From the IMG/VR virus record IMGVR_UViG_3300045051_000625, positions 1 through 28,288 of that record: DNA of 28,288 bases; one strand, written 5' to 3'. The notes below the pieces were generated by a model. It searched no databases and was not told the origin of the DNA. It saw only the letters and a list, made by a program, of their open reading frames with translations. The position numbers were made by a program, and so were the translations under genes. The stretch comes from a virus. Below are positions 4,336 to 27,598 of the stretch, one piece after another; the first letter of the stretch is position 1, and each line of letters begins with the position of its first letter.

Positions 4336-4525
4336 TGACGCTCTTTACTGACGCGGCGCGACGGTTCCACCGTTCAAGCGCCTGATCAATGCCATACGCA
4401 ACCGGGCCTTCGGCTTGACATGTCATGCACACAACCCAATGCTTAATGCTCCCACTATGTATCCTCATACGAGTAGCGCCACAGAATGGACACGGCGAGT
4501 ACTCTTTTAACTCAATCTTATTCAA
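4325..4525 (-). CDS. Lar-like restriction alleviation protein, 66 aa
   Basis: The protein has the Lar family pattern: a short lead, CPFCG (residues 12-16), then VVCMTCQAEGP and a C-terminal ALERWNRR. Lar of the Rac prophage eases type I restriction by favouring modification of incoming DNA; a similar counter-restriction role is inferred here. The likely start is TTG (4525), whose last two bases and the next A form the TGA stop of the HNH gene (TTGA overlap), with AGAGG seven bases upstream. No better start lies further in, because the CPFCG motif follows within 12 residues. Translation is probably coupled to the HNH gene. Confidence 0.68.
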   Translation of the reverse strand: MNKIELKEYSPCPFCGATRMRIHSGSIKHWVVCMTCQAEGPVAYGIDQALERWNRRAASVKSVNAK

Positions 4526-5121
4526 CGACTGGCCTCTGCGTCCAAAGCGCGATAGTCGATTATCTGTATGCCTTTACGAATGTTACACACAGCACATAAA
4601 GGCTGGAGGTTCTCAATGTTGTTCGATCCCCCGCCTACGACCGGAATAACATGGTCAACAGTCAGCGGCTTTTGTTCACCGCAACAGAGACAACGATAAT
4701 CGTACCTAGCACACAATGCACGCCATTCGGCAATCGTATAACTTCCGCCGTTCGCACGGCGAAGCACGCGCCGCTGATGTGAACGGCGAACATTGAATTC
4801 AGGGTGTGCCTTTGACCATTCGCGCTTGGCGGCATTCATTTGCACACGATTGGCCTTCCTGTACTCACGCTGATACGAGCTATACTTTTCACGATTTCTC
4901 GCAGTCCACTCGCGATTGTACGCCAATCTTTGTTCTTTTCTTGCCGCCTTATACTCAGCATCAGCCCGGCGTAGGCGGTCAATGTTTTCTTGACGATATT
5001 CGTGAGCACATGGCTTGCAATAGGCCGCGATGCCCCCCGACCGATTCTTGTTCTTGTAATACTCAGAGAGGGGTTTATCCACGCCGCATTTACTACAGCG
5101 TTTATGGGGTATAATGTCCAT
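4522..5121 (-). CDS. HNH endonuclease with N-terminal zinc motif, 199 aa
   Basis: The N-terminus has CSKCG and CKPC pairs (about residues 9-40), a zinc-binding motif often seen in free-standing phage HNH proteins. A long, very basic helical stretch (about 45-125) follows, then an HNH domain with CLCC, LTVDHVIPVVGGG, NIENLQPLCAVCN. The DH of TVDHVIP and the N of CNIRKG are the expected catalytic and metal-binding residues. The ATG at 5121 is chosen because AGGAG lies seven bases upstream and a promoter sits at 5188-5193; in-frame codons further up would run through that promoter. It looks like a homing-type or cargo endonuclease placed between the gp10-like and protease genes. Its sequence looks more AT-rich than its neighbours. 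Confidence 0.85.
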   Translation of the reverse strand: MDIIPHKRCSKCGVDKPLSEYYKNKNRSGGIAAYCKPCAHEYRQENIDRLRRADAEYKAARKEQRLAYNREWTARNREKYSSYQREYRKANRVQMNAAKREWSKAHPEFNVRRSHQRRVLRRANGGSYTIAEWRALCARYDYRCLCCGEQKPLTVDHVIPVVGGGSNNIENLQPLCAVCNIRKGIQIIDYRALDAEASR

Positions 5122-5187
5122 GTCGCATCTCCTGAACAGTTGCGGCCATGCACTCGGCTGTTGACAGCAGCGCGAGTGCTTTACACT

Positions 5188-5216
5188 ATTATACCACAAA
5201 TACGGCATTACAATCA
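5188..5216 (-). promoter_or_regulatory. Extended -10 promoter for the HNH-Lar-Com cassette
   Basis: On the minus strand TGGTATAAT gives a perfect -10 box (5193-5188) with the TG of an extended -10. The sequence 17 bases further up (TGATTG, 5216-5211) is only a weak -35, as is common for extended -10 promoters. It lies about 67 bases before the HNH start, in the gap after the gp10-like gene. Confidence 0.62.
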
Positions 5217-5687
5217 CTTATTTTCAGCGTCCAAAGCCCTTTGGAAGATTGCCCCCACTTGAGCTTGCCACTTTTGCGCAATCACCTTATTCCAGTTGCG
5301 CGCCGCCGTGCCTGGGTGATGCACCACGCGCGCCACAACCTTGTTTTGTCCTTTACTTCCCGCCCGGCTCATAATCTGATTGGGCAGCGTCTTACTCTGA
5401 AACGGCGTGATGAAACGCAGAATGCCGCGCGCCTTCTTGGGCCTGATCTCATGCGCGCGAGTGCCGACATTCAACATTCCAAACACTTCATCATCGGTTG
5501 CGATCTCGCGCGTGTACTGATCGGGAGATGTGATCTTGAAATCCGGTCTGTGCTGCCAGGTTTGCGTGACAACGCCAAAATCAACCTTAATATCTTTCGC
5601 AACGCCTGTGAGCGTGTTCTGAATGGCGCGCTCCATTTGCTGCGGCTTGAACACGCTGCCTTTAGGCTTAATGATCGATGCTGGCAC
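5214..5687 (-). CDS. HK97 gp10-like head-tail or tail-completion protein, 157 aa
   Basis: The middle and end carry GTRAHEIRPKKARGILRF and HHPGTAARNW, the pattern typical of the HK97 gp10 family of neck or tail-completion proteins, which join head and tail. The length is normal for the family. The start is GTG (5687), whose G overlaps the TAG stop of the preceding gene, with CTGGAG five bases upstream. In many phages this gene lies after the capsid gene; here it precedes the protease and capsid genes. The family call comes from motif memory. Confidence 0.65.
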   Translation of the reverse strand: MPASIIKPKGSVFKPQQMERAIQNTLTGVAKDIKVDFGVVTQTWQHRPDFKITSPDQYTREIATDDEVFGMLNVGTRAHEIRPKKARGILRFITPFQSKTLPNQIMSRAGSKGQNKVVARVVHHPGTAARNWNKVIAQKWQAQVGAIFQRALDAENK

Positions 5688-12826: not shown

Positions 12827-13021
12827 ATGCACCAGAACATCGTAACACCGGAAGAAGACGAAGAGGACGACGGGCCGTGGGACTGGGCGCGCACAAGCGA
12901 ACGCTATGTGGCGCTATCGAGGAAGCCCGGCTATCTGCGCCCGGTTGAGGCGCGTGAGATGGTCGCGATCGAACGGCGCATGGGAGCGCTGATTGCGCAT
13001 TATGCAAGAGGGGGCATATGA
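12827..13021 (+). CDS. Hypothetical acidic early protein, 64 aa
   Basis: The ATG at 12827 is preferred because AGGAG lies seven bases upstream; the ATG at 12821 is too close. The N-terminus is very acidic (TPEEDEEDDGPWDW), followed by a helix ending in ALIAHYARGG. It ends in an ATGA overlap with the next gene. Unknown role. Confidence 0.68.
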   Translation: MHQNIVTPEEDEEDDGPWDWARTSERYVALSRKPGYLRPVEAREMVAIERRMGALIAHYARGGI

Positions 13022-13236
13022 CCGAACTCGACACATCGGCAATTATACGCGCACACGTTGCGATTGTCATCGCCGAATTGACCGAAGAGGAACGGATCGG
13101 CCTGCGGCTGTCACTGGCGCTTGGGTCTGATCTGTACAATCGATCATGGTCATACAAGCTCGCACCGCTCTTTACCCAGGACGGCGGCACGAAGATGCAC
13201 GAGGAAACGATCGCAGCGCTGCGGAGGGTAGCATGA
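13018..13236 (+). CDS. Hypothetical early protein with MTELDT N-terminus, 72 aa
   Basis: Starts in an ATGA overlap and ends in an ATGA overlap with the next gene. Its first eleven residues, MTELDTSAIIR, closely match those of the next gene, suggesting a duplicated or recombined 5' end. The rest is helical with no known motif. Confidence 0.7.
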   Translation: MTELDTSAIIRAHVAIVIAELTEEERIGLRLSLALGSDLYNRSWSYKLAPLFTQDGGTKMHEETIAALRRVA

Positions 13237-13463
13237 CCGAACTTGACACGCCGGCGATCGGGCGCAAGATCGCCTATCTCCACCATCACGATCGACCGGC
13301 GCTGATCAAGCTCTTATCCGCCGCGCCGCGTCATGTGTGGCAACCGCTGGCGCTGGCGTACGTCACGCACATTGGGCAAACGTGCGATGCAGTTGACCGC
13401 GATCTGGCAGTGCCAGGCGTACTCTACATTTGGGAACAACTGGTTAAGGAGGCAAACACGTGA
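13233..13463 (+). CDS. Hypothetical early protein with MTELDT N-terminus, 76 aa
   Basis: Begins MTELDTPAIGR, sharing MTELDTxAIxR with the gene before it, then diverges (HHHDRPALIKLLSAAPRHVW). ATG 13233 overlaps the preceding stop by four bases with GGAGGG upstream; the longer open frame is antisense-free but overlaps the upstream gene and is not used. Ends in a GTGA overlap. Unknown role. Confidence 0.7.
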   Translation: MTELDTPAIGRKIAYLHHHDRPALIKLLSAAPRHVWQPLALAYVTHIGQTCDAVDRDLAVPGVLYIWEQLVKEANT

Positions 13464-15966: not shown

Positions 15967-18132
15967 ATGACTACGCTGGTAGATACGGCGATAGGCTATG
16001 CCATGCGTTTTGGCTGGTCAGTTCACCCGGTCAACACCAAGAAACAGCCAATCACGCCGCATGGTCGCAACGACGCTACACGCGACGAACAGGCGATCAG
16101 GAAGCTCTTTCGCAACGGCGCACAGATCGGCGTCGCAACCGGCGTAGAAAGCAACCTGTTCGTACTCGACATTGATCTAGACGAAACCAAAGGCGTCAAC
16201 GGCTATGAGACGCTGGAGTACCTGGAAGGCGTGCATGGAAAACTGCCTGCAACGCCCTGCCAGCGCACCGGGCGCGGCGGATTGCAATACCTCTTTCGCC
16301 ACAAAGCCGGACTCAAAAACAGCAGCGGCAAGATCGGCGCTGGCGTCGATACCAGAGGCGAGGGCGGCTACATCGTCGTCACTCCTAGTCGCAACCAGGC
16401 CGGCCCCTATGAATGGATCGTATCCCCGAACGACTGCCCATTAGCTGACTGCCCCCAGTGGATTATCGACGCGCTGAAGGAAGCTGAGAAGCCCCAGGAG
16501 CCGCAAGTCGGCGCAAACGGCAACGAGCGCACCTATTGCCAGAAAATGTTAGGCCAGGCGGTTGCGCGGGTTGCGACTGCGCCGGACGGCCAAAAGCATG
16601 AGATGCTGCTGAAAATGGCGCGCTGGCTCGGCGGCTTTGTGCCGACGTTGAATGAAGCAGAGATTGAAAGCGCGCTGTTTGCAGCTATCGAGATGCGAGC
16701 AGACGACCATCGCAACGCCCGGCAGACGATCAAAGACGGAATAGCGTACGGCAAGGCGCAACCGCTTGAACCGCCGAAGCAACGCCAGCAGGCAGCGCCA
16801 ATTAATGTCAATCCGCAAACAGGCGAGATATTGGACAAGGATCGTCCGATAATCAAACCGCATATCGAATATGTAGTGGACTGGCGATCGGAGATCATCT
16901 CACTTCGCGATCTCCAGAATAAACACTTCGATCCTGAGAAGTGGATAATCGAGCGCATCTTACCGGAAGGGGCGTGCCTTCTGGCAGCGAAGTACAAGAG
17001 TTATAAGTCGTGGCTCTGTCTTGGGTTAGGACTGGCGATTAGCATGGGCGGCAAGGCACTGGGACAACTGGAAGTGGAAAAAGGCCATGTGCTGTATCTT
17101 GATCTCGAAGGACGCCAGCAGCGCATCAAGAAGCGCACACGGGCAATCTTAGGAGTGCAACAGATCGACTGGCCGGATAACTTTCATGTGACGACGAAAT
17201 GGCCGCGTGGAGAGGAAGGCGTTCGGGAGCTTGAGCAGTGGTTCAGCTCCTACCCTGATACCATCTATGTCTGCATTGATGTGTTAGGCGATTTTCGCCG
17301 TCCAATAGACAAACACGAAATGGGCTATCAGTACGACCGGGATACGGTGCAACCGCTGAATGAGCTGGCCGAACGCTACCACGCTGCGATTCATCTCGTA
17401 CACCATTTCAACAAAATGAAGAACATCGCCGGCGATATTATGGATAGCATCAGCGGCACTACTGGTCTTCCCAGCGCTGTAAATACAATGTGGGGACTAT
17501 CGAAAGATCCGAATGATAGTCACATCACGATCCTGAGCTTGCGCGGCCGCGATCTGGAGAATGACGAACCGATCGCGTTGAAGTGGGATGACTATCTCAA
17601 CCTGCACGTAATCGAAGGCCCGGCGCGCGAAGTGTCTGTGAGCGCCGAACGCAAGTCAATCCTGAACGTACTGTCTGATGACCAGCCGCGCACGCCAAAA
17701 GAGATAGCAGCGGAGATAGGACGCTCTGTACCAAACGTACAGCAGCTCTTACGCAAGCTCTTGAACGATGGGTTGATCGAGAAACCGGTTTATGGCTGCT
17801 ACGCTAGAATACCCACAAAAGCCGATCAGACCGATCAGACCGATCAGAGTGATAATAGCGATCAGAGTGATAACTCTGATCGGCATGTACCGACTCTGAT
17901 CGGTGGTTTTCCTACCGATCAGAGTCGTGTGGGGCATCAGGAAGACCCAAACGCCAACTCTGATCGGTCTGATCGCTATGTAGAGGGGGTATCTATTTTC
18001 AGCGGTTTGTCAAAAAGAGATGCATTCCAGCTTCGCAACTACTTGCGACTGCCGGATTACCAGGATCGCGCGCGGCGATTGTGCAATAAGTATGGGCTTG
18101 ACTATGAGCAAGCTAGGAAGGAAGTGCTATGA
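15967..18132 (+). CDS. Primase-polymerase fused to RepA-like ATPase/helicase, 721 aa
   Basis: Residues of about 1-180 form a bifunctional primase/polymerase (prim-pol) domain: GWSVHPVNTKKQPITPHGR, the metal-binding DID in FVLDIDLD (Asp68, Asp70), GRGGLQYLF and VDTRGEGGYIVVTPSR. Residues of about 315-560 resemble AAA_25/RepA-type hexameric ATPases: a P-loop AKYKSYKS (about 342-349) lacking the usual glycines, VLYLDLEG, TIYVCIDVLGDFR (Walker B) and LVHHFNKM. A winged-helix segment (RTPKEIAAEIGRSVPNVQQL) follows, then a D/S/Q-rich linker coded by iteron-like repeats and a helical C-terminus. It would prime and unwind at the phage origin, possibly the one inside this gene. ATG 15967 follows AGAGG. 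Confidence 0.88.
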   Translation: MTTLVDTAIGYAMRFGWSVHPVNTKKQPITPHGRNDATRDEQAIRKLFRNGAQIGVATGVESNLFVLDIDLDETKGVNGYETLEYLEGVHGKLPATPCQRTGRGGLQYLFRHKAGLKNSSGKIGAGVDTRGEGGYIVVTPSRNQAGPYEWIVSPNDCPLADCPQWIIDALKEAEKPQEPQVGANGNERTYCQKMLGQAVARVATAPDGQKHEMLLKMARWLGGFVPTLNEAEIESALFAAIEMRADDHRNARQTIKDGIAYGKAQPLEPPKQRQQAAPINVNPQTGEILDKDRPIIKPHIEYVVDWRSEIISLRDLQNKHFDPEKWIIERILPEGACLLAAKYKSYKSWLCLGLGLAISMGGKALGQLEVEKGHVLYLDLEGRQQRIKKRTRAILGVQQIDWPDNFHVTTKWPRGEEGVRELEQWFSSYPDTIYVCIDVLGDFRRPIDKHEMGYQYDRDTVQPLNELAERYHAAIHLVHHFNKMKNIAGDIMDSISGTTGLPSAVNTMWGLSKDPNDSHITILSLRGRDLENDEPIALKWDDYLNLHVIEGPAREVSVSAERKSILNVLSDDQPRTPKEIAAEIGRSVPNVQQLLRKLLNDGLIEKPVYGCYARIPTKADQTDQTDQSDNSDQSDNSDRHVPTLIGGFPTDQSRVGHQEDPNANSDRSDRYVEGVSIFSGLSKRDAFQLRNYLRLPDYQDRARRLCNKYGLDYEQARKEVL
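17822..17976. other. Iteron-like repeat cluster, candidate replication origin
   Basis: Nine copies of CCGATCAGA or its complement TCTGATCGG (two with one mismatch) lie in 155 bases: forward at 17822, 17831, 17840, 17858 and 17915; reverse at 17875, 17895, 17959 and 17968. The first three are directly tandem. Two hairpins form: CGATCAGAGT with ACTCTGATCG across 4 bases (17859-17882), and CGACTCTGATCGGT with its exact complement across 9 bases (17891-17927). The repeats code for a D/S/Q-rich linker of the replication protein. Iterons inside an initiator gene mirror the lambda origin inside gene O; origin function is inferred. Confidence 0.65.
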
Positions 18133-18600: not shown

Positions 18601-18631
18601 AAGGTTGCAACATTATCACAGAGAGGGAGAT

Positions 18632-20038
18632 ATGACAGACCTGGAAACATTCCTCGAAACCAAGCGGATCACCGCACCGCTGAGCGGCTTCGACATCGAT
18701 CAATCGGCGCTCAATCCCGCTGCATTCGACTGGCAGAAGCTCATCACGCAGTGGGCCATTCGGCGCGGCAAGGCGGCCATCTTCGCCGATTACGGACTAG
18801 GCAAGACGCTGCAAATTCTGATGTACGCTCAGGCGATCATTGAGCGCACGAACAAGCCGTTCCTGATCTTGTCGCCGCTTGGGGCGGCGAAGCAAACCAG
18901 CCATATCGAATCTCCAAAGTTCGGCTATGACGCCATATACTGCAAGTCGCAGGACGACGTACCGGGCAGGGCTGTTATCTGTGTCACGAACTATGAGCGG
19001 TTGCACCTGTTCGATCCGCGCGCATTCGGCGGCATGGCGGCTGACGAGGCCAGCATTATCAAGGACTTCGCCGGCAAGATCCGTAATCAGATTATGGGCA
19101 TGTTTCGCTATATGCCGTACAAACTGCTGGCGACTGCTACGCCTAGTCCGAATGACCATGCCGAGCTGGGCAACTATTGCCAGGCGCTCGACATCATGAG
19201 CTATCAGGAGATGTTGTCAACATTCTTCGAGCGCCGTGAGAAAAGCAGTTCGGCATGGTCGCTGGGGGGCTGGGGGGCGCAAAAGTTTTGGGAATGGCTC
19301 GCATCGTGGGCGATGGTCATTCGTAAGCCGTCCGATCTTGGCTACTCAGATGATGGCTACAACTTGCCGCCGCTCCATATCCACACGATCGACGTGGCAC
19401 GCAACGAACGGCGATATATTCAGGCGCAAGGTGCGCAACTCTATCTCTTCCCGGTCGAGGCGCGCGGCATGTCTGATCAGCGCAATGCGCGCAAGGTGAC
19501 AATGGAGGATCGGGTTGAGGCGATCGCCGAGATGGTCAGCGCCTCGAATGAGCAGTGGGTAATATGGGGCGAAACGAACGCTGAGTGCGACTATGCTGAG
19601 AAGCGCCTCAAGGACGCGGTGCAGGTCGCAGGTCGTCACACGGAAGACCACAAAGAGGATAGCATCATACGGTTTAGGCGGGGATCTATCCGTGTGCTGG
19701 TATCGAAAACCAAAATATTCGGCCACGGACTGAACCTCCAGAACTGTCACATGACCGCCTACCTCGGCTGGTCTAACAGTTTTGAGCAGTTCGATCAGAG
19801 CTTGCACCGCTTCCATCGTTATGGACAGCCGCACGCTGTACACGCGCACATCGCATCGACCGACTTTGACGGCGCGATTGTTCGCAATATCGAGCGCAAG
19901 CGCACCGAACACGAAGAGAGGATCAATAACGTCGTACAACACATGCAGGCGTTCACGCTGGTGAACGTGCAGGGTGCGCGGCGTGAACAAATCGAATATC
20001 AGCCGACAATGCCCATGCGCATTCCCGCATGGCTGTAA
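18632..20038 (+). CDS. SNF2-like superfamily II helicase, 468 aa
   Basis: Motif I ADYGLGKT (residues 52-59) is followed by motif Ia LILSPLGA, Walker B as ADEAS (near 142), motif III TATPSP, and in the second lobe VLVSKTKIFGHGLNLQNCH and QSLHRFHRYGQ (motif VI with its arginines). The Asp-Glu-Ala-Ser box and HRxGQ ending fit SNF2-type translocases found in phage replication modules. It probably remodels DNA or protein-DNA complexes. ATG 18632 follows AGAGGGAGA; the upstream TTG extension is not needed. The methyltransferase gene follows after nine bases. Confidence 0.9.
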   Translation: MTDLETFLETKRITAPLSGFDIDQSALNPAAFDWQKLITQWAIRRGKAAIFADYGLGKTLQILMYAQAIIERTNKPFLILSPLGAAKQTSHIESPKFGYDAIYCKSQDDVPGRAVICVTNYERLHLFDPRAFGGMAADEASIIKDFAGKIRNQIMGMFRYMPYKLLATATPSPNDHAELGNYCQALDIMSYQEMLSTFFERREKSSSAWSLGGWGAQKFWEWLASWAMVIRKPSDLGYSDDGYNLPPLHIHTIDVARNERRYIQAQGAQLYLFPVEARGMSDQRNARKVTMEDRVEAIAEMVSASNEQWVIWGETNAECDYAEKRLKDAVQVAGRHTEDHKEDSIIRFRRGSIRVLVSKTKIFGHGLNLQNCHMTAYLGWSNSFEQFDQSLHRFHRYGQPHAVHAHIASTDFDGAIVRNIERKRTEHEERINNVVQHMQAFTLVNVQGARREQIEYQPTMPMRIPAWL

Positions 20039-20047
20039 GGAGCGACT

Positions 20048-21019
20048 ATGTTTCCTGACAACGTGAAAGTGATCGATCAACTCGTCTCTGACCGTTTCGC
20101 CGCTTATCACGGCGACAGTTGCGAAGTGATGAAGGGACTCCCAGACAACAGTATCCACTTCTCCATCTATTCGCCGCCGTTCGCCGACCTGTTTACGTAC
20201 AGCGCCAGTGAGCGCGATCTTGGCAACAGCAAAGGCGACACAGAATTTATGTTCCACTTCCGCTACATCGTGCGCGAACTGTACCGCGTGCTGATGCCTG
20301 GTCGTCTTATGGCGGTTCACTGTATGCCGCTTGGCTACATGAAGTATAAAGACGGCTATGTCGGAATAAAGGATTTTCCCGGCAAGCTCATCAGGATTTT
20401 CGAGCGCGCCGGATTCATCATGCATCAGCCGAACATCACGATCTGGCGCGATCCGGTTATCGAGCGCGCCAGATCGAACGTTAACCGATTACTGCATTCG
20501 CAGATCATTGCTGATAAGGCGAAGTGCGGCGTAGGCACGCCTGATTACTTGGTCGTGATGCGCAAGCCGGGTGAAAACACCCAGCCGATTGAACACTGTT
20601 TTCAGCGCTATGTCGGAGAAATGCCAGAGCCGCAAGCAACCTACACGACGGACGACGATCCCTACAACCGCTATTCGATCGAGGTATGGCAGCGGTACGC
20701 ATCTCCGGTTTGGTTTGACATTGATCGCGGTGATACGTTGAACGATCAAGGATCGCAAGAGATCGATCGGGAGAAGCACATTTGCCCATTGCAGTTGGGC
20801 GTTATTCGTCGCGCCCTGCACATCTGGACGAATCCCGGCGATATAGTGATCGATCCGTTTAGCGGCATCGGGTCAACTGGCGTTGTGAGCTTGCAGGAAG
20901 GCCGCAGAGCCGTGCTTTGTGAGCTTAAGCGATCATACTATAGTCGAGGTCTTACAAATCTTCTGGACGCTGATCAGGTGCAGGCATCGCCGAACTTCCT
21001 GCATCTCGTGGAGGCGTGA
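20048..21019 (+). CDS. DNA methyltransferase, N4-cytosine/N6-adenine type, 323 aa
   Basis: Catalytic motif IV is SPPF (residues 42-45) and the AdoMet-binding motif I is DPFSGIGSTG (about 268-277), so motif IV precedes motif I as in beta-class enzymes. SPPF/Y is typical of N4-cytosine enzymes but also occurs in some N6-adenine enzymes, so the base is undecided. A central stretch (about 165-260) could recognise the target. No partner restriction gene lies next to it; the likely role is to protect phage DNA from host restriction, or to mark DNA for replication. GGAGCG precedes ATG. Confidence 0.9.
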   Translation: MFPDNVKVIDQLVSDRFAAYHGDSCEVMKGLPDNSIHFSIYSPPFADLFTYSASERDLGNSKGDTEFMFHFRYIVRELYRVLMPGRLMAVHCMPLGYMKYKDGYVGIKDFPGKLIRIFERAGFIMHQPNITIWRDPVIERARSNVNRLLHSQIIADKAKCGVGTPDYLVVMRKPGENTQPIEHCFQRYVGEMPEPQATYTTDDDPYNRYSIEVWQRYASPVWFDIDRGDTLNDQGSQEIDREKHICPLQLGVIRRALHIWTNPGDIVIDPFSGIGSTGVVSLQEGRRAVLCELKRSYYSRGLTNLLDADQVQASPNFLHLVEA

Positions 21020-22926: not shown

Positions 22927-23209
22927 CGCGCTGATCCTTGTCATCGCCGGCGCTGCGGCCCCCGGCTCTGTGGCCTACTGGCATCTGCCGGATATGGCGC
23001 GGCTGGCTTCATATCTGTTCGTACTGGCGCTGGCGTATGTCGTATACAACCGACTGCCGATCGACGCTCCGATTGATCAGGAACAGGCGGAGCGGCCACT
23101 AATCGAGCCGACAATCCGTCTGGACTACTTGCCGATGTCAGTCGTGACAACGCGACTGGACACGCCGGAAGAGACGGATGCCTACACAGGCGTTACGAGG
23201 CGATTATAG
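22913..23209 (+). CDS. Membrane protein with long polar tail, 98 aa
   Basis: GTG start (22913) overlaps the preceding gene by 14 bases with AAGG upstream. An N-terminal hydrophobic helix (ALILVIAGAAAPGSVAYW) and a second (LASYLFVLALAYVVY) are followed by about 50 polar residues (DQEQAERPLIEPTIRLD). Unknown role; the tail could face the cytoplasm. Confidence 0.65.
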   Translation: MNRANALILVIAGAAAPGSVAYWHLPDMARLASYLFVLALAYVVYNRLPIDAPIDQEQAERPLIEPTIRLDYLPMSVVTTRLDTPEETDAYTGVTRRL

Positions 23210-23210
23210 T

Positions 23211-23960
23211 ATGCCGCGCAAGAACTTTGTCATTGGAATTTATATGATACGCAACACTGCAACTGACATGCTCTATATCGGCAGCAGTGCTGGTAAGTTT
23301 GGTATCCAAGGCCGATGGGATATGCATCGCATTGATTTACGGTGTGGGAAGCATTCTAATCCGAGATTACAAGCATCGTGGAACAAACATGGAGAGGACG
23401 TATTCGTATTCATGGTGATTGAATCGGCTGATCCTTCTCAGCTCATAGAGCGAGAGCAATACTGGATTGATCGCTATCGAAGTGAAGGAGCGAAATTATA
23501 CAACATGCTGCCAGTCGCCGGTTCTCGTTTGGGTGTTCCCACATCAGATGAGGCAAAGCGCAAGCTGTCAGACAGCCTCAAAGGCCGTCCTATCACAGAT
23601 GAGACGATACGAAAACGATGCATTACACGAAATTCCATCTATTCCTTTGTTGCCCCTGATGGAACAGAGCACCATAATATTGTCAATCTAAGGTCATTTG
23701 CTGACAAACGCGGGTTGAATAGCAATGCACTTCGTCTCGTTTGGAACGGTGAAAATAAGCATCACAAGGGATGGGTCAAACTAGGCAATACCCTGCTTTG
23801 GTATGTCGTAACACACCGTTCAAGCGGTGAGATAGTTCGTTTGCATAAAGGACAATTACGATCCTTTTGTATCGAACACCATATAGACACAAGCAACTTA
23901 CTCAAGATACTAAAGGGAAAGTTAAGATATGCAAACAACTGGACAATCTCAACTGAATGA
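23211..23960 (+). CDS. GIY-YIG homing endonuclease with NUMOD-like domain, 249 aa
   Basis: The N-terminal GIY-YIG nuclease domain shows GIYMI (residues 9-13) and LYIGSS, then an arginine in GRWDMHR and a glutamate in IEREQYW, the expected catalytic set. After it comes SDEAKRKLSDSLKGR, a NUMOD3-like DNA-binding repeat, and a C-terminal part with NLRSFADKRGLNSNALRLVW and a second similar unit near QLRSFCIEHHIDTSNLLKIL, like NUMOD1/HTH repeats of homing enzymes. It looks more AT-rich than its neighbours, a sign of transfer. It stands free, with no intron seen; its end overlaps the next gene by 32 bases. Confidence 0.88.
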   Translation: MPRKNFVIGIYMIRNTATDMLYIGSSAGKFGIQGRWDMHRIDLRCGKHSNPRLQASWNKHGEDVFVFMVIESADPSQLIEREQYWIDRYRSEGAKLYNMLPVAGSRLGVPTSDEAKRKLSDSLKGRPITDETIRKRCITRNSIYSFVAPDGTEHHNIVNLRSFADKRGLNSNALRLVWNGENKHHKGWVKLGNTLLWYVVTHRSSGEIVRLHKGQLRSFCIEHHIDTSNLLKILKGKLRYANNWTISTE

Positions 23961-26220: not shown

Positions 26221-26327
26221 CCGTTCTCTACGCCTACATCTCGATTGCTGTCTGGTTGCTGATCGCCGTCATCCTCGTCGTCGGCACGGCGATCGAGATC
26301 GTGCGCTGGTGGAAGAAACGGCATTAG
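26217..26327 (+). CDS. 36-aa single-helix membrane peptide
   Basis: Starts in an ATGA overlap with the preceding gene and reads MTVLYAYISIAVWLLIAVIL before a basic end WWKKRH. A clean membrane helix with a positive tail. Its stop codon overlaps the stop of the minus-strand fiber gene by four bases (26324-26327). Confidence 0.6.
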   Translation: MTVLYAYISIAVWLLIAVILVVGTAIEIVRWWKKRH

Positions 26328-27598
26328 GACTGTTTCCAGTGAATGAGCGTCATGGCCGCCGTTGACGTGCCACTGCCCACTGACACGAAAAACAGCACTT
26401 TGGTTGCGGTCAAAAAATCCGTCCTCCCGACCGTGTGAATATCAATCCAGTTATAGCCGTCGCGCCCAATCCGGCAGATCCGGTTTGTTCCATCGTCGCT
26501 GATCTGAAACCAGATTACTGGCCCGCTGATCAGGTGCGGCGCGTTCGTATTAGCGAGATACGAGCTATTGTATGAGGTAACGCTATTCCACTTGAAGACC
26601 GCAAGCTGAAACGTGCCTGCGTTGTTTTGTACGGCTGGCGTAACGAGTTTCGTCCCGTCGCACCAGCCGATCCCACAGAAGGGTATATCGCCGATCGACA
26701 AGAGCGGAATGAATCCCGCTTCAATCGTGTAGGGCGTCGCTGGCGCGGCATACTCGCGGCAACGTAGATTAAATCCCGCACCAGAACTGGGAGTGGACAA
26801 GTAAATGCCACCGTTTGTCGTATCGACTGATGCCGATCCCTGGTTGCGCCACGAGAAATTGGCGTCAACCGGGCGCACCATCGGCCAGATCGGCCCCCAC
26901 GACTCCCACGCCGATCCGGTATCACGATCGATGTACAAACCGTTATTCGGCAGGAACAGCCGTCCAGCTTTCGCCGCTGCTTGACGAGACGCATCAGCCG
27001 CCGTCGTAATGCCCGTCGTTCCCACCACGATCGCATTCGTGAGACCAGCATTTGCTGTCTCAATCCAGTAGTCGGCGTCTGCTGGCGCTCCGCCGCCGCC
27101 GCCCCCTCCGCCGCCGCCCCCTCCGCCGCCGCTTGTGAAGTAGATGATCATGCCACGGATAGTGCCGGCGGCTTCTACCGTCAATTCCGTGCCGGCGGCA
27201 TTCGTGGCAGGACTGAATAATTGCGCTACAACTTGATTGCCTTGCAGAATGCCTTGAATGCTGCCATTGGCGAATGTAACATTAACCGTCTCGACAGGAA
27301 AAGCGAAGTTGACGCCCGCCGCGCTGGTGAACGGCAGGCCGCCGATCCTGACGACGCCAGTGCCGGTTGCAGCCGTCCAGACCAGCTCGAATTGCGCAAA
27401 GACGACTGGGCCGATAAGTTTGTAATTGCCACTTTGCGTGGTATAGGTCGTTACGCCCGCCGTCGTTGCGCCAAAATACGTCGGCGTCCATGTGCCGACT
27501 GCGCCTGTTCCTGCGGTTCCGAACGATGACTTGATCTCTGTTCGTGCAAGGCGATGACGAAGATCACGTATTTGGCGTTGCAGGTCGCTATTATCCAT
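26324..27598 (-). CDS. Tail fiber or receptor-binding protein, 424 aa
   Basis: A short N-terminal coiled coil (residues 3-20, RQIRDLRHRLARTEI) is followed by a beta-rich domain (VGTWTPTYFGATTAGVTTYT to about 150), a run of fourteen glycines (about 156-169), and a C-terminal beta-sandwich-like domain rich in W, N, S and G. Such modular proteins at the tail tip bind host surface. The glycine run is coded by a 15-base tandem repeat. It follows the Gp37-like tail gene with an 8-base overlap, as the last late gene. Confidence 0.7.
   Translation of the reverse strand: MDNSDLQRQIRDLRHRLARTEIKSSFGTAGTGAVGTWTPTYFGATTAGVTTYTTQSGNYKLIGPVVFAQFELVWTAATGTGVVRIGGLPFTSAAGVNFAFPVETVNVTFANGSIQGILQGNQVVAQLFSPATNAAGTELTVEAAGTIRGMIIYFTSGGGGGGGGGGGGGGAPADADYWIETANAGLTNAIVVGTTGITTAADASRQAAAKAGRLFLPNNGLYIDRDTGSAWESWGPIWPMVRPVDANFSWRNQGSASVDTTNGGIYLSTPSSGAGFNLRCREYAAPATPYTIEAGFIPLLSIGDIPFCGIGWCDGTKLVTPAVQNNAGTFQLAVFKWNSVTSYNSSYLANTNAPHLISGPVIWFQISDDGTNRICRIGRDGYNWIDIHTVGRTDFLTATKVLFFVSVGSGTSTAAMTLIHWKQS
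27090..27133. repeat. 15-bp tandem repeat coding a polyglycine linker
   Basis: The unit CCGCCGCCGCCCCCT is repeated exactly at 27093-27107 and 27108-27122, with a partial third copy to about 27132. Unit length is a multiple of three, so slippage changes linker length without a frameshift. Confidence 0.8.

Follow-up and report, generated by a model that had tools for sequence, protein, structure and literature searches.

The cluster of short repeats at positions 17822-17976 of the window (the whole stretch of 28,288 nucleotides that we analysed) is very probably a cis-encoded replication origin of the iteron type, whose reader would be the winged helix (wHTH) that the same gene encodes immediately upstream. 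Comparison of sequences gives good support to a constraint acting on the DNA itself, to a sequence-specific reader, to co-diversification of the repeats with the wHTH, and to a fixed position of the repeats behind the wHTH codons. We infer further that binding to the array would serve replication initiation, that the helicase would load itself, and that two hexamers would be loaded.

The array lies in the gene of a 721-aa replication protein, with the following parts.

15967-18132, plus strand: gene of the replication protein (Prim-Pol, RepA-like helicase, wHTH, disordered linker and C-terminal helices)
15991-16461, plus strand: Prim-Pol (AEP primase-polymerase) domain, residues 9-165 (Pfam PF09250, E=2.2e-35)
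16915-17415, plus strand: RecA-fold helicase (AAA_25), predicted hexameric, residues 317-483 (PF13481, E=6.5e-24)
17644-17808, plus strand: winged helix, residues 560-614 (PF13412/PF01022, HTH match 562-606; AlphaFold pLDDT ~85-90)
17728-17766, plus strand: recognition helix of the wHTH, residues 588-600
17818-17988, plus strand: linker encoded by the array, residues 618-674, predicted disordered (pLDDT <50)
18013-18126, plus strand: C-terminal helical tail, residues 683-720 (pLDDT ~77-90)

The helicase has a RecA-fold core with a Walker A motif, as in an RSF1010-RepA-like helicase, and is predicted to form a hexamer; by sequence profile, RSF1010 RepA (1g8y, E=2e-7) is the closest solved replication helicase, and 1nlf and 1g8y are among its best Foldseek matches. 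Pfam and PHROG scans of the protein report Prim-Pol, AAA_25 and HTH domains and no phage O domain. The Pfam scan reports no RepA_N domain, and the protein has neither a DUF927 nor a D5/Primase_Cterm helicase, AAA_25 being its only Pfam helicase match. The AlphaFold model of the helicase-wHTH part with 50 homologues is good (pLDDT 89.8 overall), and the full-length model is poor outside the wHTH, the helicase core and the tail. The stretch predicted to be disordered, residues 618-674, coincides exactly with the part encoded by the array.

The array itself is composed of nine sites.

17822-17976, candidate origin: whole iteron array, topology >>>> << > <<
17822-17830, plus strand: iteron 1, CCGATCAGA, exact
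17831-17839, plus strand: iteron 2, CCGATCAGA, exact
17840-17848, plus strand: iteron 3, CCGATCAGA, exact
17858-17866, plus strand: iteron 4, GCGATCAGA, one mismatch
17875-17883, minus strand: iteron 5, CCGATCAGA, exact
17895-17903, minus strand: iteron 6, CCGATCAGA, exact, left arm of a 14-bp hairpin, in a frame different from that of the other minus copies
17915-17923, plus strand: iteron 7, CCGATCAGA, exact, right arm of the 14-bp hairpin
17959-17967, minus strand: iteron 8, CCGATCAGA, exact
17968-17976, minus strand: iteron 9, GCGATCAGA, one mismatch

The sequence-only reading had counted nine 9-mers here; the nine sites stand, but only seven are exact copies of CCGATCAGA and the other two carry one mismatch each. 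Its three directly tandem copies (17822, 17831 and 17840, at 9-bp spacing) and its perfect 14-bp hairpin (arms 17891-17904 and 17914-17927) are both there, together with two more perfect inverted pairs, one of 17 bp (17823-17839 and 17959-17975) and one of 10 bp (17859-17868 and 17873-17882). Elsewhere in the virus record of 28,288 bases the exact word is absent. Allowing one mismatch, the whole window has 28 copies against 8.3 +/- 2.9 expected, and a scan of the stretch in 300-bp windows finds nine copies at the array and two to seven elsewhere. The runner-up, at 26.9-27.2 kb with seven, covers a poly-glycine tract of the encoded protein; the gene there (26324-27598, minus strand) encodes a tail-like protein with a long glycine run from a simple repeat.

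One explanation for such an array is that it arose incidentally as a low-complexity D/S/T/Q linker expanded by slippage and was homogenised neutrally, and the tandem copies are in frame at 9-bp (3-codon) spacing, as slippage predicts. When we recoded the linker in 500 trials, keeping the amino acids and drawing codons according to the phage's own usage, no 9-mer reached more than three exact copies, against seven observed, so the encoded amino acids do not explain the repeat density. Aspartate codons in the linker are GAT in a ratio of 10:1, against 119:115 elsewhere. The reverse copy at 17895 reads TLIG and the remaining reverse-orientation copies read SDR; since this copy is translated in another frame, the word persists at the DNA level in more than one frame. 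The codon null, the inverted copies and the copies in another frame all argue against slippage, a reading that we consider highly improbable and that the relatives described below weaken further.

Pattern and alignment scans of IMG/VR identify the same protein in L003, L050 and L052 and its 3' end in L009; they also find related helicase-wHTH genes, those of L103-L106. All eight have an array at the same place, in both orientations, and each has its own word: CCGATCAGA in L003 and L009 as in the window, CCGATCACT in L050, L103 and L106, CCGATCACG and CACA words in L052, TGATCACTC in L105, and a word of the CCTCAGAGT type in L104. A query of IMG/VR with the single Prim-Pol sequence gave no matches, and homologues needed alignment-based queries; a blastn search with the linker had no match among phages or plasmids. 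The pattern matches L001, L002, L004-L008 and L035 were dropped as chance matches or unrelated contexts; L035, for instance, is an MFS-like transporter reading TLIGLIGL and not an array gene.

The most informative comparison is that of L003, L050 and L052, in which the helicases are 99% identical, the winged helices just 69-71% identical, and the words differ, all repeats switching jointly between CAGA, CACT and CACG. At the nucleotide level, identity is mostly 80-97% in the helicase, 65-82% in the wHTH and 42-77% in the array, and it recovers just behind the array. A word that changes along with wHTH divergence while the helicase is still 99% identical is not what slippage would give. Neither is the pattern of substitution in the close pair L003 and L009, whose 189-bp arrays differ at nine positions, all of them outside the 84 core bases (p 0.004). 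L003 also has the word in yet another reading frame, as CGA TCA GAG within DRSEL. Relatives that retain the linker residues and lose the 9-mers had been named earlier as evidence against an origin here, and we see the opposite: the linker residues differ among relatives (DQT becomes DHT or DHS, and S/TDR becomes RDR), and each relative uses a single DNA word consistently, whichever the orientation. Within the recognition helix (helix 3), the three proteins with CAGA-type words have Q at residue 592, and the five with CAC-type words have K. This split tracks the word type, and with eight sequences, some of them closely related, it is suggestive only.

To survey the family, we collected homologues with a profile of 11 helicase + wHTH sequences against IMG/VR, Chloroflexota genomes, plasmids and phages, and reduced them to less than 90% identity with the wHTH covered, leaving 96 loci. 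We call an array dense when at least five copies of one 9-mer (at most one mismatch) occur within 300 bp from the wHTH end. The sequence-only reading had proposed to search for the repeat cluster in relatives, and that search finds a dense array right after the wHTH codons in 66 of the 96 nonredundant loci, against 65 of 1418 control windows (4.6%) from the same loci (Fisher p ~1e-54). The other 30 loci have no dense array by this copy-number statistic, and L111, counted among the 66, has a TA microsatellite in place of iterons. Both orientations are present in 63 of the 66, and the order > < > < in 26 of the 44 larger arrays. Counting L111, 36 arrays are in the gene, 8 run across the stop codon, and 22 begin at or beyond it and hence cannot be protein linkers. 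In those 22 loci, where the spacing is 9-11 bp, the slippage by-product reading is already contradicted by arrays that are not coding. The spacing of same-strand neighbours is a multiple of three in 132 of 151 in-gene cases against 46 of 93 otherwise (Fisher p 1.6e-10), and outside genes 9, 10 and 11 bp all occur. From these sequences, the DNA spacing appears to be about 9-11 bp, narrowed to 9 by the reading frame where the array is in a gene. Across the family, similarity of the wHTH and similarity of the word are correlated weakly but significantly when the helicase is controlled for (partial r 0.14, p 0.0005).

The mean A+T gain over the arrays is about 6-7 percentage points, no obvious AT-rich unwinding element is found in the window, and GC skew over 44 arrays has no step across them. 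The skew of the window does not mark the array either, its cumulative minimum being at ~12 kb; the turn at ~12000 is the point of divergent transcription between minus-strand structural genes and plus-strand early genes. The array strand folds much better than shuffled sequences (z -9.4), with a long outer stem and two hairpins. Because the skew is unsupportive, the A+T gain small and the strand able to fold into stems, structural or regulatory roles are possible.

In a structural role, the inverted repeats would act through a cruciform or a single-strand fold, as a single-strand origin, in recombination or in mRNA structure. The folding score speaks for it, and relatives with the > < > < topology would form comparable stems. 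Pairing needs no common word, yet the stems and the surplus direct copies share one word per genome, and the array of L085 consists almost solely of direct copies, all of which makes a purely structural role very unlikely. In a regulatory role, the array would be truly bound, by the encoded wHTH or by some other protein, but for autoregulation, for control of copy number or incompatibility, or as a partition-like site. parS sites, too, can be arrays of short repeats: the RedRock parS loci have eight direct 8-bp repeats, and Miko and Rachaly have a five-repeat parS just downstream of repA (PMC7157519). The missing skew support for an origin also fits this explanation. Against it, the position of the arrays in phages, plasmids and genomes is tied to the 3' side of the wHTH codons of the helicase-primase and not to promoters or par genes, and the sites co-vary with the helicase's own wHTH. 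We regard it as improbable, though less so than slippage or structure.

The plasmid pATHE01 of Caldicellulosiruptor bescii presents the arrangement in a compact form. In this complete 8.3-kb plasmid, the sole recognisable replication gene is a Prim-Pol/AAA_25/wHTH homologue, and right after its wHTH comes an array of TTCACTC repeats in a forward block and a reverse block; the GC-skew extremes of the plasmid are not at the array. An N-terminal Prim-Pol is found in the window, L103, pATHE01 and L090, and elsewhere the N-terminal primase is represented by a weak TOPRIM match (L112) or a weak RepB-primase match (L106). Prim-Pol is absent from all tested records of the window's phage group (terminase relatives), yet one contig of this group has a helicase-wHTH gene, L104, with its own array. 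The primase is thus exchangeable, and helicase, wHTH and array stay together. We abandoned a GC-skew analysis of a Tsukamurella plasmid since its record, NZ_LR134447.1 (L206-L210, labelled plasmid 5), looks chromosomal: it contains pheST, uvrAB, rpsA, polA and other housekeeping genes, and is therefore probably a piece of chromosome. Its helicase-wHTH gene sits in what looks like an integrated element.

The comparative data favour the earlier proposal that the iterons in the linker are read by the protein's own winged helix. In an iteron-type origin of this kind, the winged helix (residues 560-614) would bind the CCGATCAGA sites within its own gene and so position the RepA-like hexameric helicase fused to it; two such assemblies may form, one on the forward and one on the reverse block, facing in opposite directions. 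The positioned helicase would open the DNA, and the fused Prim-Pol would prime synthesis. The linker encoded by the array would serve as a disordered spacer in which any residues imposed by the DNA words are tolerated.

Several known systems resemble this arrangement in part. RSF1010, with RepA, RepB', RepC and oriV, likewise brings together primase, helicase and initiator functions, but as separate proteins with oriV outside them, and the window has all three in one polypeptide. The parallel with lambda gene O drawn by the sequence-only reading holds for the layout and fails for the enzyme and the domain order: O binds through its N-terminal domain and lambda requires P and host DnaB. In lambda, the iterons lie midway within the initiator gene, O (PMC7466680). 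Unlike the window protein, O is not a helicase. The SaPI rep and RepA_N (pSK41) systems are parallels equally close. SaPI Rep reads, through its C-terminal domain, iterons directly downstream of its gene, and SaPI rep-ori and SCCmec Cch2 share with the window a helicase-initiator, a C-terminal iteron reader and a primase fused or adjacent (PMC7581432). The SaPI and SCC helicases are of the DUF927 or D5/Primase_Cterm groups (PMC7581432), whereas the one here is of the RecA-fold RSF1010-RepA type, and the window array is inside the gene rather than downstream. In pSK41, the RepA_N origin sites are located centrally in the rep gene, are read by the protein's own winged helix and encode a dispensable linker, and in pPR9 the DNA-binding domain and origin have been swapped as a module, the rest being >97% identical (PMC5703833). 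RepA_N plasmids are thus alike in their in-gene, linker-coding sites, their reader and the module swap, and differ in that RepA_N, a small initiator, lacks both helicase and primase and has its DNA-binding domain at the N-terminus.

An iteron origin inside or adjacent to the initiator gene is therefore known as a kind (lambda O, RepA_N, SaPI rep). Searches that paired iterons with Prim-Pol or with a RepA-type helicase turned up no account of this helicase-wHTH family in the searchable literature, subscription papers being mostly outside it. Nor did we find it described that RepA-like helicase-wHTH proteins in general share this architecture, in which the primase can be exchanged and the specificity cassette changes as one unit. 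The loci likely represent a widespread one-gene replicon class, present in phages, in plasmids and in the genomes of bacteria from several phyla, in which a RepA-like helicase with a C-terminal wHTH has its iteron-cassette origin fixed right behind the wHTH codons, in or just outside the gene, wHTH and array co-changing as a specificity cassette whatever the N-terminal primase (Prim-Pol, TOPRIM or RepB-type). Such a class would be ordinary in principle and unusual in extent, and it offers an unusually clear natural experiment of a reader and its sites changing together. If it is real, origin and reader could be found straight from sequence in uncultured phages and plasmids with this helicase family, and compact replicons could be had for hosts such as Caldicellulosiruptor or Chloroflexota. 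The matched series of DNA-binding domains and sites (near-identical helicases with three words) bears on the wHTH recognition code and on the evolution of replicon compatibility.

Some other features were seen along the way. On the contig of L042, L212:1519-3063 encodes an unrelated ATPase (weak AAA_16 match only) with an apparent C-terminal helix-turn-helix, and CGATCAGA repeats follow, in the gene and past its stop; this is possibly another reader-plus-sites gene. In the window, adjacent SNF2-like helicase and N6/N4 DNA methylase genes occupy 18605-21019, and their shared match to phrog_16 suggests that in other phages the two are fused. Two endonuclease genes are probably mobile, one HNH (4522-5217, minus strand) and one GIY-YIG with a weak NUMOD3 match (23178-23960, plus strand). 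Finally, two near-identical 26-bp stretches (ATGACCGAACT...GACAC) are at 13018-13043 and 13233-13258, and the second of them overlaps a short reading frame on that frame's start side.
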